Origin: an uncultured bacterium
Lineage (GTDB): Bacteria; Methylomirabilota; Methylomirabilia; Rokubacteriales; CSP1-6
Length of the DNA: 8,487 nt
Assembly (NCBI GenBank): GCA_946479205.1
Contig: CAMLFJ010000110.1
Coordinates: 1 to 8,487, forward strand
Direction: 5' to 3'
Position 1 is the first letter of the stretch. Each line of letters starts with the position of its first letter. The position numbers and the translations under genes are program-made. Positions 304 through 4,339 of the stretch are shown piece by piece. The notes below the pieces were generated by a model. It saw nothing but the letters and a program-made list of their open reading frames with translations, made no database searches and was not told where the DNA came from.

Positions 304-1560
304 ATGGCGACGCGGCACGAGACGGTGATCGTGGGCGGCGGACACGCCGGGCTCGCGCTCAGCTACCACCTGGGCCGGCTCGGGCGCCCGCACGTCATCC
401 TCGAGCGGGGGCGCGTGGCCGAGCGCTGGCGGAGCGAGCGCTGGGATTCGCTGATGTTCCAGTTCCCCAACTGGAGCCTCCGCTTGCCCGGCCAGGAGTA
501 TCGAGGGAGCGAGCCGGACGGCTTCGCCACGCGCGGCGAGGTGATCGCCTTCATCGAGCGCTATCGCGAGCTCGTGGCCGCGCCGGTGCGAACCGGTGTG
601 CGGGTGGATCGGGTCCACGCGGGGGACGGCCGGTTTCGGCTCGAGACCACGGAGGGGCCGATCGAGGCCACCAACGTCGTCGTCGCCACCGGCCCGTATC
701 AGGAGCCGGTCCTGCCCCCGCTCCGCCACGCGCTTCCGCCGGGCGTGCTCCAGGTTCACGCGAGCGGGTATCGTAATCCGGCGCAGCTCCCCGCGGGCGC
801 GGTGCTCGTCGTCGGCTCCGGCGCCTCCGGGTGCCAGATCGTGGAGGACCTGCTCTCGGCGGGCCGTGCCGTGTACCTCTCGGTGGGCCGCCACCGTCGC
901 TATCCGCGCCGCTACCGCGGCCGCGACATGTTCTGGTGGATGGAGCGGATCGGCGCGCTCGACCAGACCCGCGACGAGCGCCCCGAGGCGCGGGAGCGGC
1001 CGAACCCGCTCGTGACCGGGGTCGGCGGCGGCCACGACATCGACCTGCGAGACTACGCGGCCGCCGGCGTCACGCTGCTCGGGCATCTCGTGGACGTCAT
1101 CGGCTCGCGCCTGCGCCTGGCCGATGACCTGACCGCGCTGCTGGCCGCCGGCGACGAGAGCGTCGGGGTGTTCACGCGCGCGGTGGACGCCTACGTCGCC
1201 CGGTCCGGGCTCGCGGTGCCGGTGGAGACGCCGCCCGTGATCGCGCCGCCGCCCGCGGCGCCGCCCGCGCCGATTCGGGAGCTCGACCTGGCCGCTTCAG
1301 GCATCATGTCGGTGGTCTGGGCGACCGGTTTCCGGCGCGACTTCGGGTGGATCGACGCGCCCGTCCTCGACGAGCGGGGCGAGCCGATCCACCAGCGGGG
1401 GATCACCGGCTGCGAGGGGCTCTACTTCCTGGGGCTGCCGTGGCTCCACAAGCTCAAGTCGTCCGTGCTGTGCGGGGTCGGAGACGACGCCGCCCATCTC
1501 GCCGACCATATCGCCGCGGGCGCCGCGCGCCCCCGGCCGGGACTGATCAGGAGGGCGTGA
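304..1560 (+). CDS. FAD/NAD(P)-binding monooxygenase-like flavoprotein (CzcO / flavin-containing monooxygenase type)
   Basis: A 418-residue flavoprotein of the CzcO/FMO-like group, whose members use FAD and NADPH in oxygenation or redox reactions. Seen in the sequence: an N-terminal FAD Rossmann motif VGGGHAGLALSYHLGRLG (residues 10-27), with an acidic residue ending strand 2 in HVILERG; a second dinucleotide-binding motif VGSGASG (residues 170-176), expected to hold NADPH; and a C-terminal WATGF motif (residues 339-343), then LGLPWLHKLKSS and a final helix, as is usual for the family. The length is normal. The ATG at 304 has no clear Shine-Dalgarno. The stop overlaps the next start by one base (TGATG), so it heads an operon with the LLM-class monooxygenase and the FMN reductase. 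That context suggests oxidation of an organosulfur or other small organic compound, but the substrate cannot be read from the sequence. Confidence 0.88.
   Translation: MATRHETVIVGGGHAGLALSYHLGRLGRPHVILERGRVAERWRSERWDSLMFQFPNWSLRLPGQEYRGSEPDGFATRGEVIAFIERYRELVAAPVRTGVRVDRVHAGDGRFRLETTEGPIEATNVVVATGPYQEPVLPPLRHALPPGVLQVHASGYRNPAQLPAGAVLVVGSGASGCQIVEDLLSAGRAVYLSVGRHRRYPRRYRGRDMFWWMERIGALDQTRDERPEARERPNPLVTGVGGGHDIDLRDYAAAGVTLLGHLVDVIGSRLRLADDLTALLAAGDESVGVFTRAVDAYVARSGLAVPVETPPVIAPPPAAPPAPIRELDLAASGIMSVVWATGFRRDFGWIDAPVLDERGEPIHQRGITGCEGLYFLGLPWLHKLKSSVLCGVGDDAAHLADHIAAGAARPRPGLIRRA
1549..1555 (+). promoter_or_regulatory. Shine-Dalgarno site that sets the start of the LLM-class monooxygenase
   Basis: AGGAGGG lies 4 nt before the ATG at 1560, inside the last codons of the upstream flavoprotein. 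It supports starting the monooxygenase here rather than at any codon further upstream in the same open frame, which would overlap the flavoprotein by about 200 bp. Confidence 0.7.
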
Positions 1561-2663
1561 TGGCCATCGAGTTCATCGGGATGATCGGGGTACGGCCCGA
1601 AGGGGCCGACGGCGCCGCGGTGCACGTGATCGGCGGCGCGATCGACATGGCCTGGGTCCGGGAGTTCTCCCAGGCTCACGAGCGCGCCGGCTTCGACAAG
1701 GTGCTGGTCGGCTACACGTCGACGGCCGCGGACGGCTTCCTCGTCTCGGCGTACGCCGCCGCCCACACCGAGCGGCTCGGGTACCTGCTCGCCCACCGCC
1801 CCGGCTTCGTCGCGCCCACGCTGGCCGCGCGCAAGGCGGCCACGCTCGATCAGCTCTCGGCGGGCCGGCTCGCGCTCCACATCATCACCGGGGGCAGCGA
1901 CGCCGACCAGGCGCGCGACGGCGACTTCGTGGACCACGACACGCGCTACCGCCGCACCGACGAGTACCTCGGCCTGATGCGGCGGGTGTGGACGGAGGCG
2001 CGGCCCTTCGATCACGCGGGCGAGTTCTACCGGGTGACCGCGGCCTACTCGGACGTGAAGCCGGTGCAGCAGCCGCACGTGCCGCTCTACTTCGGCGGCG
2101 CCTCCGAGGCCGCGCATCGGATCGGCGTCCGGCACTGCGACGTCTACATGCTGTGGGGCGAGCCGCTCGCCGCGATCCGCGACCGCATCGCGGGCGTGCG
2201 CGCGGCCGCGGCGGGCGCCGGCCGGGCGCCGGGCCTGCCGCGCTTCAGCGTCTCGCTGCGGCCGATCATCGCGCCGACCGAGGCGCAGGCCTGGGCCAAG
2301 GCGCGCGCGATCCTGGAGCAGGTGCAGGCCAAGCAGGGGGCGCGCGGCGTACCGCAGCCCGAGGCGGTGGGCGCGCGGCGGCTCGTGGACTTCGCCCAGC
2401 AGGCCGAGGTGCACGACAAGCGGCTGTGGACGCCGATCGCGGCGGCGGTGGGCGGCCAGGGCAATACCACCGCGCTCGTGGGCACGCCCGAGCAGGTGGC
2501 CGAGGCGCTCCTGGATTATCACGACCTCGGCGTCACCACGCTGCTGATCCGCGGCTTCGATCCGCTCAACGACGCGATCGAGTACGGCCGCGAGCTGATC
2601 CCCCTGGTGCGCACCGAGGTCGCCCGCCGCGAGCGGGATCGCGCGGCGGCGCTCGCGCGGTGA
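1560..2663 (+). CDS. LLM-class flavin-dependent monooxygenase, alkanesulfonate monooxygenase (SsuD)-like
   Basis: A 367-residue bacterial luciferase-like (LLM-class) enzyme of the SsuD group. SsuD oxygenates alkanesulfonates using reduced FMN delivered by a partner reductase. Seen in the sequence: LLAHRPGFVAPTLAARKAAT beginning at residue 76, then LDQLSAGRLALHIITGG; DGDFVDHDTRYRRTDEY; QQPHVPLYFGG (the last four residues are 177-180); and the C-terminal GTPEQVAEALLDYHDLG. All line up with known SsuD sequence blocks in the same order. The start is the ATG that overlaps the upstream stop, with a good Shine-Dalgarno. The stop overlaps the FMN reductase start by 4 nt (GTGA), so both flavin partners are translationally coupled. 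No sulfonate transporter is in view. Related LLM enzymes act on dimethyl sulfone, nitrilotriacetate or other compounds, so the substrate is open; the family call is firm. Confidence 0.88.
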   Translation: MAIEFIGMIGVRPEGADGAAVHVIGGAIDMAWVREFSQAHERAGFDKVLVGYTSTAADGFLVSAYAAAHTERLGYLLAHRPGFVAPTLAARKAATLDQLSAGRLALHIITGGSDADQARDGDFVDHDTRYRRTDEYLGLMRRVWTEARPFDHAGEFYRVTAAYSDVKPVQQPHVPLYFGGASEAAHRIGVRHCDVYMLWGEPLAAIRDRIAGVRAAAAGAGRAPGLPRFSVSLRPIIAPTEAQAWAKARAILEQVQAKQGARGVPQPEAVGARRLVDFAQQAEVHDKRLWTPIAAAVGGQGNTTALVGTPEQVAEALLDYHDLGVTTLLIRGFDPLNDAIEYGRELIPLVRTEVARRERDRAAALAR

Positions 2664-3232
2664 CCCGGCTCCTGGCGGTGGTGGGCGCGGTGACGCCGCC
2701 CGGGCGTCTCGACACGGCGGTGCGCTTCGCGGCCGATCTTGCGGCCGAGCGGTCGGCGGTCGCCGCGACCGTGCTCAGCCTGGGCGAGCATCGCGTCTCG
2801 TTCGCGGACGGGCGCGCGCTCGACCGCTACCCCGACGACACCGCGCGCGTCGTCGGCGCGATCGCCGAAGCCGACGCGGTCCTGCTCGCGAGTCCCGTCT
2901 ACCGCGCCTCGTTCACCGGCGCGCTCAAGAACTTGCTCGATCTCACGCCGGTGGAGGCGCTGCGGGCCAAGCCGGTGGGCATCGTGGCCATGGGCGCGAC
3001 GCTCCATCACTACCTGGGGGTGGACTGGCAGCTTCGCGCGGTGCTCGCGTGGTTCGGGGCGCTGGTGGTGCCGACCAGCGTGTACCTCGAGTCCGGTCAC
3101 TTCCAGGACGGCAAGCTCGCCGATCCGGCCGCGCGCGCCGGCCTCGGCGATCTGGTGGGTGCGCTCGTCGCGATGGCGGCCCACGCCCGCGACCAGGCGG
3201 GCCCGCCGCCACTGGCCGCCGGCCGCGGCTAG
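2660..3232 (+). CDS. NAD(P)H-dependent FMN reductase, SsuE/MsuE-like
   Basis: A 190-residue flavodoxin-fold reductase that would supply reduced FMN to the preceding LLM-class monooxygenase. It starts at GTG 2660, which overlaps the upstream stop as GTGA. The longer open frame upstream is only the out-of-frame shadow of the monooxygenase. Seen in the sequence: an N-terminal strand and loop LLAVVGAVTPPGRL at the FMN-phosphate position; the family signature SPVYRASFTGALKNLLDL starting at residue 78; and then IVAMGATLHHYLGVDWQLRAVLAWFGA, matching the flavin-binding and dimer region of SsuE. The C-terminal tail, roughly residues 175-190, is Pro/Ala/Gly-rich and probably disordered. The gene converges on the thioredoxin-like gene with only 4 bp between stop codons. 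Confidence 0.87.
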   Translation: MTRLLAVVGAVTPPGRLDTAVRFAADLAAERSAVAATVLSLGEHRVSFADGRALDRYPDDTARVVGAIAEADAVLLASPVYRASFTGALKNLLDLTPVEALRAKPVGIVAMGATLHHYLGVDWQLRAVLAWFGALVVPTSVYLESGHFQDGKLADPAARAGLGDLVGALVAMAAHARDQAGPPPLAAGRG

Positions 3233-3236
3233 CCGG

Positions 3237-3791
3237 TCAGCGTTTCGGGGCGACGAAGCCGCGGATGACCTCGCGGGCGGCGGCGGCGCTCCAGTCGCCG
3301 CCGCCGATCATCCGGCCGACCAGCCGCCCCTCGCGGTCCACCAGGTAGACGGTGGGCGGCCCGAAGACGCCGTAGCCCCGGCCGGTGACGTCACCCGAGG
3401 TGTCGAGCAGCACCGGCGCGGTGTAGCCGCGCTCGGTCACCGTGCGCTTCACGAGATCCGCGCTCTCGCGAAAGCTGATCAGCAAGACTTCGAGCCCCTG
3501 GCCCTTGAATTCCTCGTACAACCGATTGACGGAAGGTAACTCCTCCCGGCAGGTCGGTCACCAGGTGGCCCAGAAGAAGAGCAGCAGCGCCTTGCCCTTC
3601 TGATCCTCGAGCCGCACGGTGCGCCCGTCGAGCGCGGGCAGCGCGAAGGCGGGCGCGGGTCTGGGTGATTCGTAGGCCTGGACGCCCAGCTTCGCCCAGG
3701 CCGGCGGCGCGGCGGCGGGCTGCGCCGCCGCGGCCCCGGCCCAGAGCACCGCCGCGATCAGGATGGACGCGGCGAGCGGGCGCGTGCTCAC
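3237..3791 (-). CDS. Exported TlpA/thioredoxin-like selenoprotein with UxxC active site (in-frame UGA = Sec78)
   Basis: This gene appears broken by a UGA at 3560-3558, but the frame continues on both sides as one 184-residue thioredoxin-fold protein. Residues 1-24 form a signal peptide with hydrophobic core ILIAAVLWAGAAAA and an Ala-rich cleavage site. After it come FALPALDGRTVRLEDQKGK, the strand ALLLFFWATW and the active site U78-P-T-C81, continuing as REELPSVNRLYEEF. The family motif there is WCxxC, so UGA replaces exactly the nucleophilic first cysteine. GPPTVYLVDREG supplies the cis-proline (Pro146). A 7-bp hairpin starts 9 nt after the UGA. The start is GTG at 3791, overlapping the peroxiredoxin stop by 4 nt, with AAGGA at 3805-3801. 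Likely role: an exported disulfide/selenenylsulfide reductant serving the upstream peroxiredoxin (inference). A pseudogene or a sequencing error is the alternative, but the exact position and the hairpin argue strongly against it. Confidence 0.85.
3530..3548 (-). promoter_or_regulatory. Putative bacterial SECIS hairpin of the thioredoxin-like gene
   Basis: Starting 9 nt after the UGA, the mRNA reads CGGGAGG, loop AGUUA, CCUUCCG. This forms a 7-bp stem with one G-U pair and a 5-nt loop that has G as its second base. There are 16 nt between the UGA and the loop, within the range I recall for bacterial SECIS elements bound by SelB. The codons covering the loop and 3' side (TTA, CCT, TCC, and AAT just after) are unusually AT-rich at third positions for this DNA, as expected if RNA structure constrains them. 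Confidence 0.75.
3558..3560 (-). other. Recoded UGA (selenocysteine) codon of the thioredoxin-like gene
   Basis: Codon 78 of the thioredoxin-like gene reads TGA on the minus strand. It sits between WATW and PTCREELP, at the catalytic cysteine of the CxxC motif. Coding continues in the same frame to the TGA at 3239-3237. UGA is the ordinary terminator of most genes in this window, so recoding must be local rather than a changed genetic code. Confidence 0.85.
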
Positions 3792-4339
3792 ACCCCCGCG
3801 TCCTTGACGGCCTTCAGCACCTCGGCCGGATCCAGCAGATCGAGGGCGTTCTCGTTGATCTTCATGTACCGGACCACGCCGTTCCTGTCGATGACGTAGT
3901 AGGCGCGCTTGGCGTAGCGGAAGATCGGGCTCTTCTCGTCGGTGACCAGCGCGTCGTACCCGGGGAGCATCGCGCGGCGGAAGTCGGACAGGAGGGGATA
4001 GCTGATCTTGTTCTGCTTGGTGAAGGCGTCCAGCGTGGCCGCGTGGTCGGCGCTCACGCCCACGACCTGGGCGCCGGCGGCGGTGAACTTCGGCAGGCTC
4101 TCCTCGAAACCGAGGAGCTCTTTGGTTCAGGTATTGGTGAACGCCTGGATGAAGGTGAAGACGACGACCGGGCCCTTGGCGGTCAGCTCGGACAGCTTCA
4201 CGGGCTTGTTGCCGGGGCCGGGCAGGGTGAAATCGGGCGCCTTCTGGCCGACTTCCAGGGCGGCAGCCGGGCCGGCCGAGCCGAGGCCGACGGCGGCCAG
4301 CAGCAGGGTCGCGAGCAGCAGCGGGGTCATTCGACGCAT
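3788..4339 (-). CDS. Exported peroxiredoxin (AhpC/TSA, AhpE-like) selenoprotein with Sec at the peroxidatic position (Sec71)
   Basis: The frame is interrupted by a UGA at 4129-4127, yet both halves join into one 183-residue peroxiredoxin. Residues 1-28 are a signal peptide (hydrophobic LLLATLLLAAVGLG, cleavage near PAAA-LE). LEVGQKAPDFTLPG is the classic peroxiredoxin opening. VVVFTFIQAFTNT-U71-TKELLGFEESLPKF matches the AFTxxCTKE...F..S..KF block around the peroxidatic cysteine, with UGA exactly at that Cys. VVGVSADH, the conserved arginine R145 in KRAYYVIDRNGVVRY, and a helical C-terminus complete the fold. The protein has no cysteine at all, so it would be a 1-Sec enzyme needing an external reductant. 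The ATG at 4339 has a good AAAGGAG site. Its stop overlaps the thioredoxin-like selenoprotein start (GTGA). Expected role: reduction of hydrogen peroxide or organic peroxides outside the cytoplasm. A hairpin starts 9 nt after the UGA. Confidence 0.87.
4100..4117 (-). promoter_or_regulatory. Putative bacterial SECIS hairpin of the peroxiredoxin gene
   Basis: Nine nt after the UGA the mRNA reads CUCCUCG, loop GUUU, CGAGGAG. This is a perfect 7-bp stem with a 4-nt loop opening with G. The loop begins 17 nt after the UGA, the same offset as in the neighbouring thioredoxin-like gene. The short stem, small loop with an early G, and 16-nt spacing fit the bacterial SECIS model. The hairpin lies within coding sequence, where it encodes part of LLGFEE. 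Confidence 0.78.
4127..4129 (-). other. Recoded UGA (selenocysteine) codon of the peroxiredoxin gene
   Basis: Codon 71 reads TGA between FTNT and TKELLGF, at the peroxidatic cysteine of the peroxiredoxin family. The downstream frame stays open for 112 more codons and encodes the remaining peroxiredoxin fold, including the conserved arginine. A point mutation destroying the gene could fall anywhere, so its placement on the one codon that Sec replaces in known selenoproteins is telling. Confidence 0.87.

Follow-up and report, generated by a model that had tools for sequence, protein, structure and literature searches.

The minus-strand gene at positions 3237..3791 of the 8,487-nucleotide stretch of DNA analysed here (the window) almost certainly encodes a thioredoxin-fold oxidoreductase of the Prx-like/TlpA-ResA type, probably exported, whose UxxC nucleophile would be a selenocysteine (Sec) decoded via a SECIS element; the gene upstream of it would, at the same high confidence, encode a one-Sec peroxiredoxin without cysteine. 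Both kinds of selenoprotein are already known, and the additions made here are a new member and the overlapping pair.

The tlpA-like gene and its product

The tlpA-like gene (TlpA/ResA-like, PF00578, UxxC) starts with GTG at 3791, comprises 184 codons and ends with a TGA stop at 3239-3237 on the minus strand. The first-pass annotation had described a TlpA/thioredoxin-like gene in which UGA replaces the first Cys of WCxxC, and this was confirmed: codon 78 (3558..3560, minus strand) is an in-frame TGA within FFWATW-U-PTCREELPSVN, the frame is open on both sides of it, and the second residue of the UxxC pair, Cys81, is encoded at 3549..3551 on the same strand. The TGA occupies a redox-active position at which homologues carry Cys, as in selenoprotein genes. 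The start agrees with relatives, 98 of the 120 N-terminal pieces listed (the best 120 of 353) being 77 residues long. The signal peptide claimed earlier stands as a resemblance of the N-terminus judged by eye, and the protein is probably exported.

With Cys substituted for U, the protein matched the AhpC-TSA domain (PF00578) with an E-value of 9.5e-27, and Redoxin was also matched. Its scores lay below the NCBIfam cut-offs for ResA (98.6 of 170 bits), TlpA (71.4 of 230 bits) and DsbE (55.4 of 123 bits), and we therefore filed it under the Prx-like thiol:disulfide oxidoreductases, defined by a PF00578 domain with UxxC, here U78 and C81. An AlphaFold2 model built from a 40-sequence alignment reached a mean pLDDT of 90.2, with low values for residues 1-30. 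The best PDB matches of the model were ResA, followed by TlpA and Geobacter thioredoxin-like proteins, and a PDB search by sequence ranked a Geobacter thioredoxin-like protein first. The GPPT motif reported downstream of the active site was found at residues 144-147, with Pro146 and Thr147 invariant in a 30-sequence alignment whose rows all cover it. The protein thus shares the thioredoxin fold, the W-x-x-x active-site position and the cis-Pro motif with the exported thiol-disulfide oxidoreductases ResA, TlpA and DsbE, which have Cys (the first of WCxxC) where it has Sec. A UxxC site exchanges electrons with disulfides.

The predicted protein also resembles the Prx-like thiol:disulfide oxidoreductase selenoproteins (PF00578, UxxC/UxxU) of PMC9312934 and PMC13188914 in its PF00578 domain and UxxC pair; compared with the descriptions given in the available text of these papers, it differs in its probable Methylomirabilota host and in being coupled to a Prx selenoprotein gene.

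The overlapping prx-like gene and the rest of the window

The prx-like gene (peroxiredoxin-like, PF00578, TxxU; 3788..4339, minus strand) lies upstream of the tlpA-like gene on the same strand, starts with ATG at 4339 and consists of 183 codons and a TGA stop, which the tlpA-like start overlaps by four bases, GTGA (3788..3791, minus strand). A second UGA at the catalytic position of this adjoining gene had been put forward in the first-pass annotation as an argument against chance, and the argument holds: the in-frame TGA is codon 71 (TNT-U; 4127..4129, minus strand), at the peroxidatic position in the context AFTNT-U-TKEL, and U71 aligned to the Cys of PDB 2ywn. The product matched PF00578 with an E-value of 2.9e-30, shows the TxxU motif of Prx selenoproteins (T68-N-T-U71) and contains no Cys besides U. 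It scored below the NCBIfam cut-offs for PrxU (29 of 270 bits) and thiol peroxidase PRK09437 (53.6 of 140 bits). When the 112 residues behind the UGA were used as a query, all 120 homologues listed (the best 120 of 2016) started behind it, and 118 of them contained no Cys. With the selenoprotein peroxiredoxin (Prx, TxxU) of PMC9312934, PMC13188914 and PMC1088965 the prx-like protein has PF00578 and TxxU in common; as far as the available text of these papers describes Prx, it differs in having no further Cys, in its apparent signal peptide and in the unreached PrxU cut-off.

A prx-like search of 199 Acidobacteriota genomes at E 1e-25 matched five, and four of the five matches carried one TGA, aligned with codon 71. 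In all four of these genomes selB exceeded the cut-off and tRNA-Sec scored 68-76 bits. The genome of the fifth match, a Cys form, had selB and gave a weak tRNA-Sec match, 48.9 where the cut-off is 47, a level that 5 of 14 control genomes also reached. No Prx match was obtained in 400 Chloroflexota genomes at E 1e-25, an empty answer that by itself shows nothing, and the 169 records from a plasmid scan all had less than 60% identity to the prx-like protein.

The eight other window genes examined, all on the plus strand, were ordinary; none contained an inner stop, and TGA terminates six of the seven complete ones. Three of these genes follow one another (304-3232, plus strand), an arrangement that suggests a unit for organosulfur use; they encode a flavin-dependent oxidoreductase, an alkanesulfonate-monooxygenase-like luciferase-family protein and an FMN reductase. 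The remaining plus-strand genes encode an MPAB_Lcp-type protein, a GNAT acetyltransferase, a thymidylate kinase, a DNA polymerase III delta'-like protein and a PSP1/RicT-type protein. Rfam returned no match in the window at E-values up to 1, and PADLOC none for the prx-like or the tlpA-like protein. ARAGORN proposed a tRNA-like fold at 3232-3325 (plus strand), which lacks a proper anticodon and extends over the end of the tlpA-like gene; we took it as probably spurious.

Conservation of the interruption in homologues

Database relatives of the tlpA-like protein are broken at the same residue. In a search with the N-terminal 77 residues, all 120 homologues listed (the best 120 of 353) stop exactly at the site, at lengths of 75-78 residues, 119 of them ending in WATW and one in WTTW. 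Among the best 120 of 541 homologues of the full protein, 106 do not cover the Sec site and 14 do. Neither these counts nor those of the N-terminal and prx-like searches are unbiased frequencies, since the search applies a length filter by which pieces of particular lengths are favoured, and the best 120 are counted. The first query residue aligned in the 106 was residue 85 in 98 cases, 80 in five, and 79, 84 and 91 in one each. The 14 that span the site have Cys (11), Gly (one), Trp (one) or Ser (one). The three without Cys (P0004, Gly; P0005, Trp; P0042, Ser) would reflect either a UGA read by the gene caller under another code or a genuine loss of the nucleophilic residue.

Methylomirabilota bacterium (P0026, P0142, P0174, P0266) and Candidatus Rokuibacteriota bacterium (P0324) occur as sources of the listed homologues, and so do Dormibacteraeota (P0173), Solirubrobacterales (P0204) and Deferrimicrobiaceae (P0337). 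The 77-residue N-terminal pieces (P0253-P0362 and others) are often named cytochrome oxidase Cu insertion factor (SCO1/SenC/PrrC family) by JGI, and the C-terminal pieces are annotated as peroxiredoxin, a systematic misannotation that records one selenoprotein as two short proteins. A further entry (P0003, 131 residues, from a 573-base contig) has a C-terminal piece joined to an N-terminal piece that ends at WATW, the position of the Sec codon; this joined form is probably an assembly artefact.

At the DNA level, a tlpA-like search of 395 genomes, whose phylum we take to be Desulfobacterota, gave matches in 116 at E 1e-22. At least 15 of the homologues among the matches listed have one inner stop, and in all 15 it is a TGA at codon 78, with Cys81 kept. 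Matches were also found in 20 of 297 Acidobacteriota genomes (E 1e-24), and no inner stop in any of the 20. The first-pass annotation had proposed asking whether relatives have TGC/TGT or TGA at this codon, and had named unrelated stops or frameshifts elsewhere in the gene of close relatives as the sign of decay. The first question is answered by 68 distinct sites read as DNA, 16 of which have TGA (the window included) and 52 a Cys codon; these derive from 65 loci, each set of identical sequences being entered once and alignments left out, uncounted, where E exceeded 1e-18 or the site fell in a gap. Cys81 is kept at all 16 Sec sites and all 52 Cys sites. As to the second, stops elsewhere in the gene were not seen among the matches listed. 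An inner TGA in the elongation-factor match of two Acidobacteriota was discarded as the normal end of an EF-Tu-like frame.

Three Desulfobacterota genomes (G746, G861, G948) have two TGA-bearing tlpA-like genes each, some of them with Cys paralogues too, so the Sec form has been duplicated there. A selB gene was present in 11 of 12 Desulfobacterota genomes with a TGA gene and equally in 11 of 12 genomes chosen for comparison, for which no TGA match was listed, and its presence therefore does not discriminate the genomes with a TGA gene; one of the latter, G909, gave no selB match. When genome contigs were scanned for DNA of close relatives, the 80 loci retained all carried Cys at the site, with an identity of at most 42%, and two scans of viral contigs confirmed no relative. 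We infer that the stop of the close relatives at codon 78 is TGA.

A stop within an otherwise open frame, from what is probably a metagenome assembly, could also point to a decaying gene or to a sequencing or assembly error, the UGA then being either a nonsense mutation or a Cys codon read wrongly. We consider this extremely improbable: the same codon is interrupted in all 120 of the N-terminal homologues listed (the best 120 of 353), TGA stands at codon 78 in 15 distant homologues, the next gene has a second UGA at its catalytic codon, and there is no further inner stop in either selenoprotein gene or in the eight other window genes. Hardly any probability attaches, likewise, to an altered genetic code that assigns UGA to Trp or Gly organism-wide. 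The full-length homologues with Trp (P0005) and Gly (P0004) may stem from gene calling under such a code, but TGA terminates both selenoprotein genes as well as six of the seven plus-strand window genes that are complete, in-frame TGAs occur only at the two catalytic codons, and 11 of the 14 site-spanning relatives listed (among the best 120 of 541) have Cys. Decoding of the UGA as Sec is the reading that we adopt.

SECIS-like hairpins

UGAs of this kind are decoded by SelB together with tRNA-Sec. At the UGA of the tlpA-like gene (3558-3560), a SECIS hairpin directly behind the codon would recruit SelB with tRNA-Sec, and for that reason the ribosome would read the UGA as Sec; Sec insertion is predicted accordingly from the codon and the hairpin. 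The candidate element (3530..3548, minus strand) has a stem of 7 bp and a loop AGUUA that begins 16 nt behind the UGA, in a register common to 15 Desulfobacterota TGA homologues. A similar hairpin behind the UGA of the prx-like gene (4100..4117, minus strand) has a stem of 7 bp and a loop GUUU, also from 16 nt behind the UGA.

The available text of PMC13188914 sets the limits of a bSECIS at a loop of 3-9 nt with G in the first two places, a stem of 4-16 bp, a spacing of 16-37 nt and an energy of at most -7.5. Both window hairpins lie within these limits, which are weak alone, being also satisfied at 505 (22%, strict) or 613 (27%, folded) of 2283 other window codons; a 7-bp stem in the fold was found at 100 of the 2283 other window codons within the limits. 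Folding z-scores were -2.46 (tlpA) and -1.15 (prx) on 46 nt, and -1.45 and -0.38, respectively, on 71 nt. Of the 15 Desulfobacterota elements, 11 lie within the limits and four outside when folded at minimum energy.

The comparison in a fixed register separated Sec from Cys homologues. Among the window and the 15 TGA homologues, six pairs form in 15 of 16 sequences (five in the remaining one) and the loop has G[G/U] in 16 of 16, compared with six pairs in none and G[G/U] in one of the 52 distinct Cys sites, which are the best-scoring loci and not a random draw. The Cys sites form three pairs in 24 cases, four in 15, two in nine, one in three and five in one. Because the register was set from mutually similar Sec sequences, the contrast arises partly by construction or shared ancestry, and changes on both sides occur in only one pair, 13-23 (A-U in 12, G-C in three, G-U in one). 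For the tlpA-like gene the contrast between Sec and Cys sequences is strong. In a post hoc test, random recoding of the window peptide with window codon usage gave six pairs in 479 of 200,000 trials, 13 of which also had G[G/U].

The tlpA-like loop uses TTA, one of two TTA codons among the 2504 codons of ten genes. Leu is written as the first residue in 49 of the 120 full-query homologues listed (the best 120 of 541), which implies a TTG start there. A rare TT-type Leu codon that supplies the GU of the loop thus seems to recur in relatives, a pattern that the length filter favours. In the four Acidobacteriota prx genes with TGA, a hairpin with G first in the loop lies 23 nt behind the TGA, and one of these hairpins, at -6.6, falls short of the energy limit. 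The register of the window prx hairpin is therefore without comparative support.

Gene callers record relatives of the tlpA-like protein as 77-residue and 101-residue proteins, and the frame could accordingly be taken to give two products (77 residues, and 101 residues from an inner TTG), or to hold a regulated stop that is read through with an ordinary amino acid. This appears very unlikely, if marginally less so than gene decay or an altered code: two products would cut the modelled thioredoxin fold inside its active site, the Cys homologues form one chain, and the SECIS hairpin and its loop are kept with the TGA codon and not with the Cys codon. The proposal of a secreted UxxC selenoprotein, made from the window alone, is upheld as the best reading, supported by the conserved TGA and by the in-register hairpin that separates Sec from Cys homologues.

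A possible selenol relay

According to their available text, PMC9312934 and PMC13188914 list selenoproteins of both kinds, Prx-like UxxC and Prx TxxU, which PMC1088965 and PMC2398784 describe. One Methylomirabilota genome is predicted to hold 63 selenoprotein genes (PMC13188914, citing Deng et al. 2026), and the accessible part of the same paper states that co-localised selenoprotein genes often act in one pathway. Ocean reads with Prx adjoining other redox selenoprotein genes (PMC2398784, available text) resemble the window in having two such genes side by side; the window pair differs in joining Prx to a TlpA/ResA-like UxxC gene through a four-base overlap, although one published read, Prx/Prx-like 2, may be of the window type. 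We found no paper on the prx/tlpA-like pair in Rokubacteria/Methylomirabilota in the open-licence literature.

The overlapping gene pair suggests a selenol peroxidase that acts outside the cytoplasm and is served by a selenol reductase of its own. Both proteins would be exported. The prx-like selenol would reduce peroxides outside the cytoplasm, the UxxC protein would reduce the oxidised selenium of the prx-like protein, and a putative membrane partner of the DsbD/CcdA type would in turn re-reduce the UxxC protein. The prx-like protein, in which Cys is absent, would need an outside reductant, and the coupled UxxC neighbour is the natural candidate. In a work cited by PMC13188914 a selenoprotein glutaredoxin reportedly reduces selenoprotein MsrA, which would be a precedent for selenium on both sides of such an exchange. 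We put this division of labour forward tentatively, at roughly one chance in three.

Four Prx and TlpA N-terminal pieces have longest contigs that are equal in size and come from the same sources (673,773; 53,128; 3,106 and 2,010 bases), circumstantial support in which sizes and not names were compared and for which a rough jitter test expects about 0.3 coincidences by chance at sizes of at least 2,000 bases. The C-terminal pieces of Prx and TlpA shared no equal contig size of at least 2,000 bases. In Desulfobacterota, no Prx match was found within 15 stretches of 3.3-7.1 kb around the tlpA-like gene, and the partnership is unsupported by neighbourhood there.

The in-register SECIS comparison over two phyla provides a clean nucleotide-level test that distinguishes Sec from Cys. 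Many of the database proteins listed are pieces cut at the UGA (106 of 120 with the full query, 120 of 120 for the prx downstream part and 120 of 120 for the tlpA N-terminal part, the best 120 in each case), and a redox pair that is seemingly common in public assemblies is consequently hidden from annotation. It is possible, though we hold it doubtful, that the pair forms a dedicated extracytoplasmic selenol relay with selenium at both electron-transfer steps, the one-Sec peroxiredoxin, which has no resolving Cys, being reduced by the UxxC selenoprotein translationally coupled to it; the pair would then be a conserved and abundant unit of soil Methylomirabilota that databases have cut into fragments. 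If the gene overlap does reflect a partnership, the pair would offer a relay open to testing, with selenium at work in both steps by which peroxide is removed.
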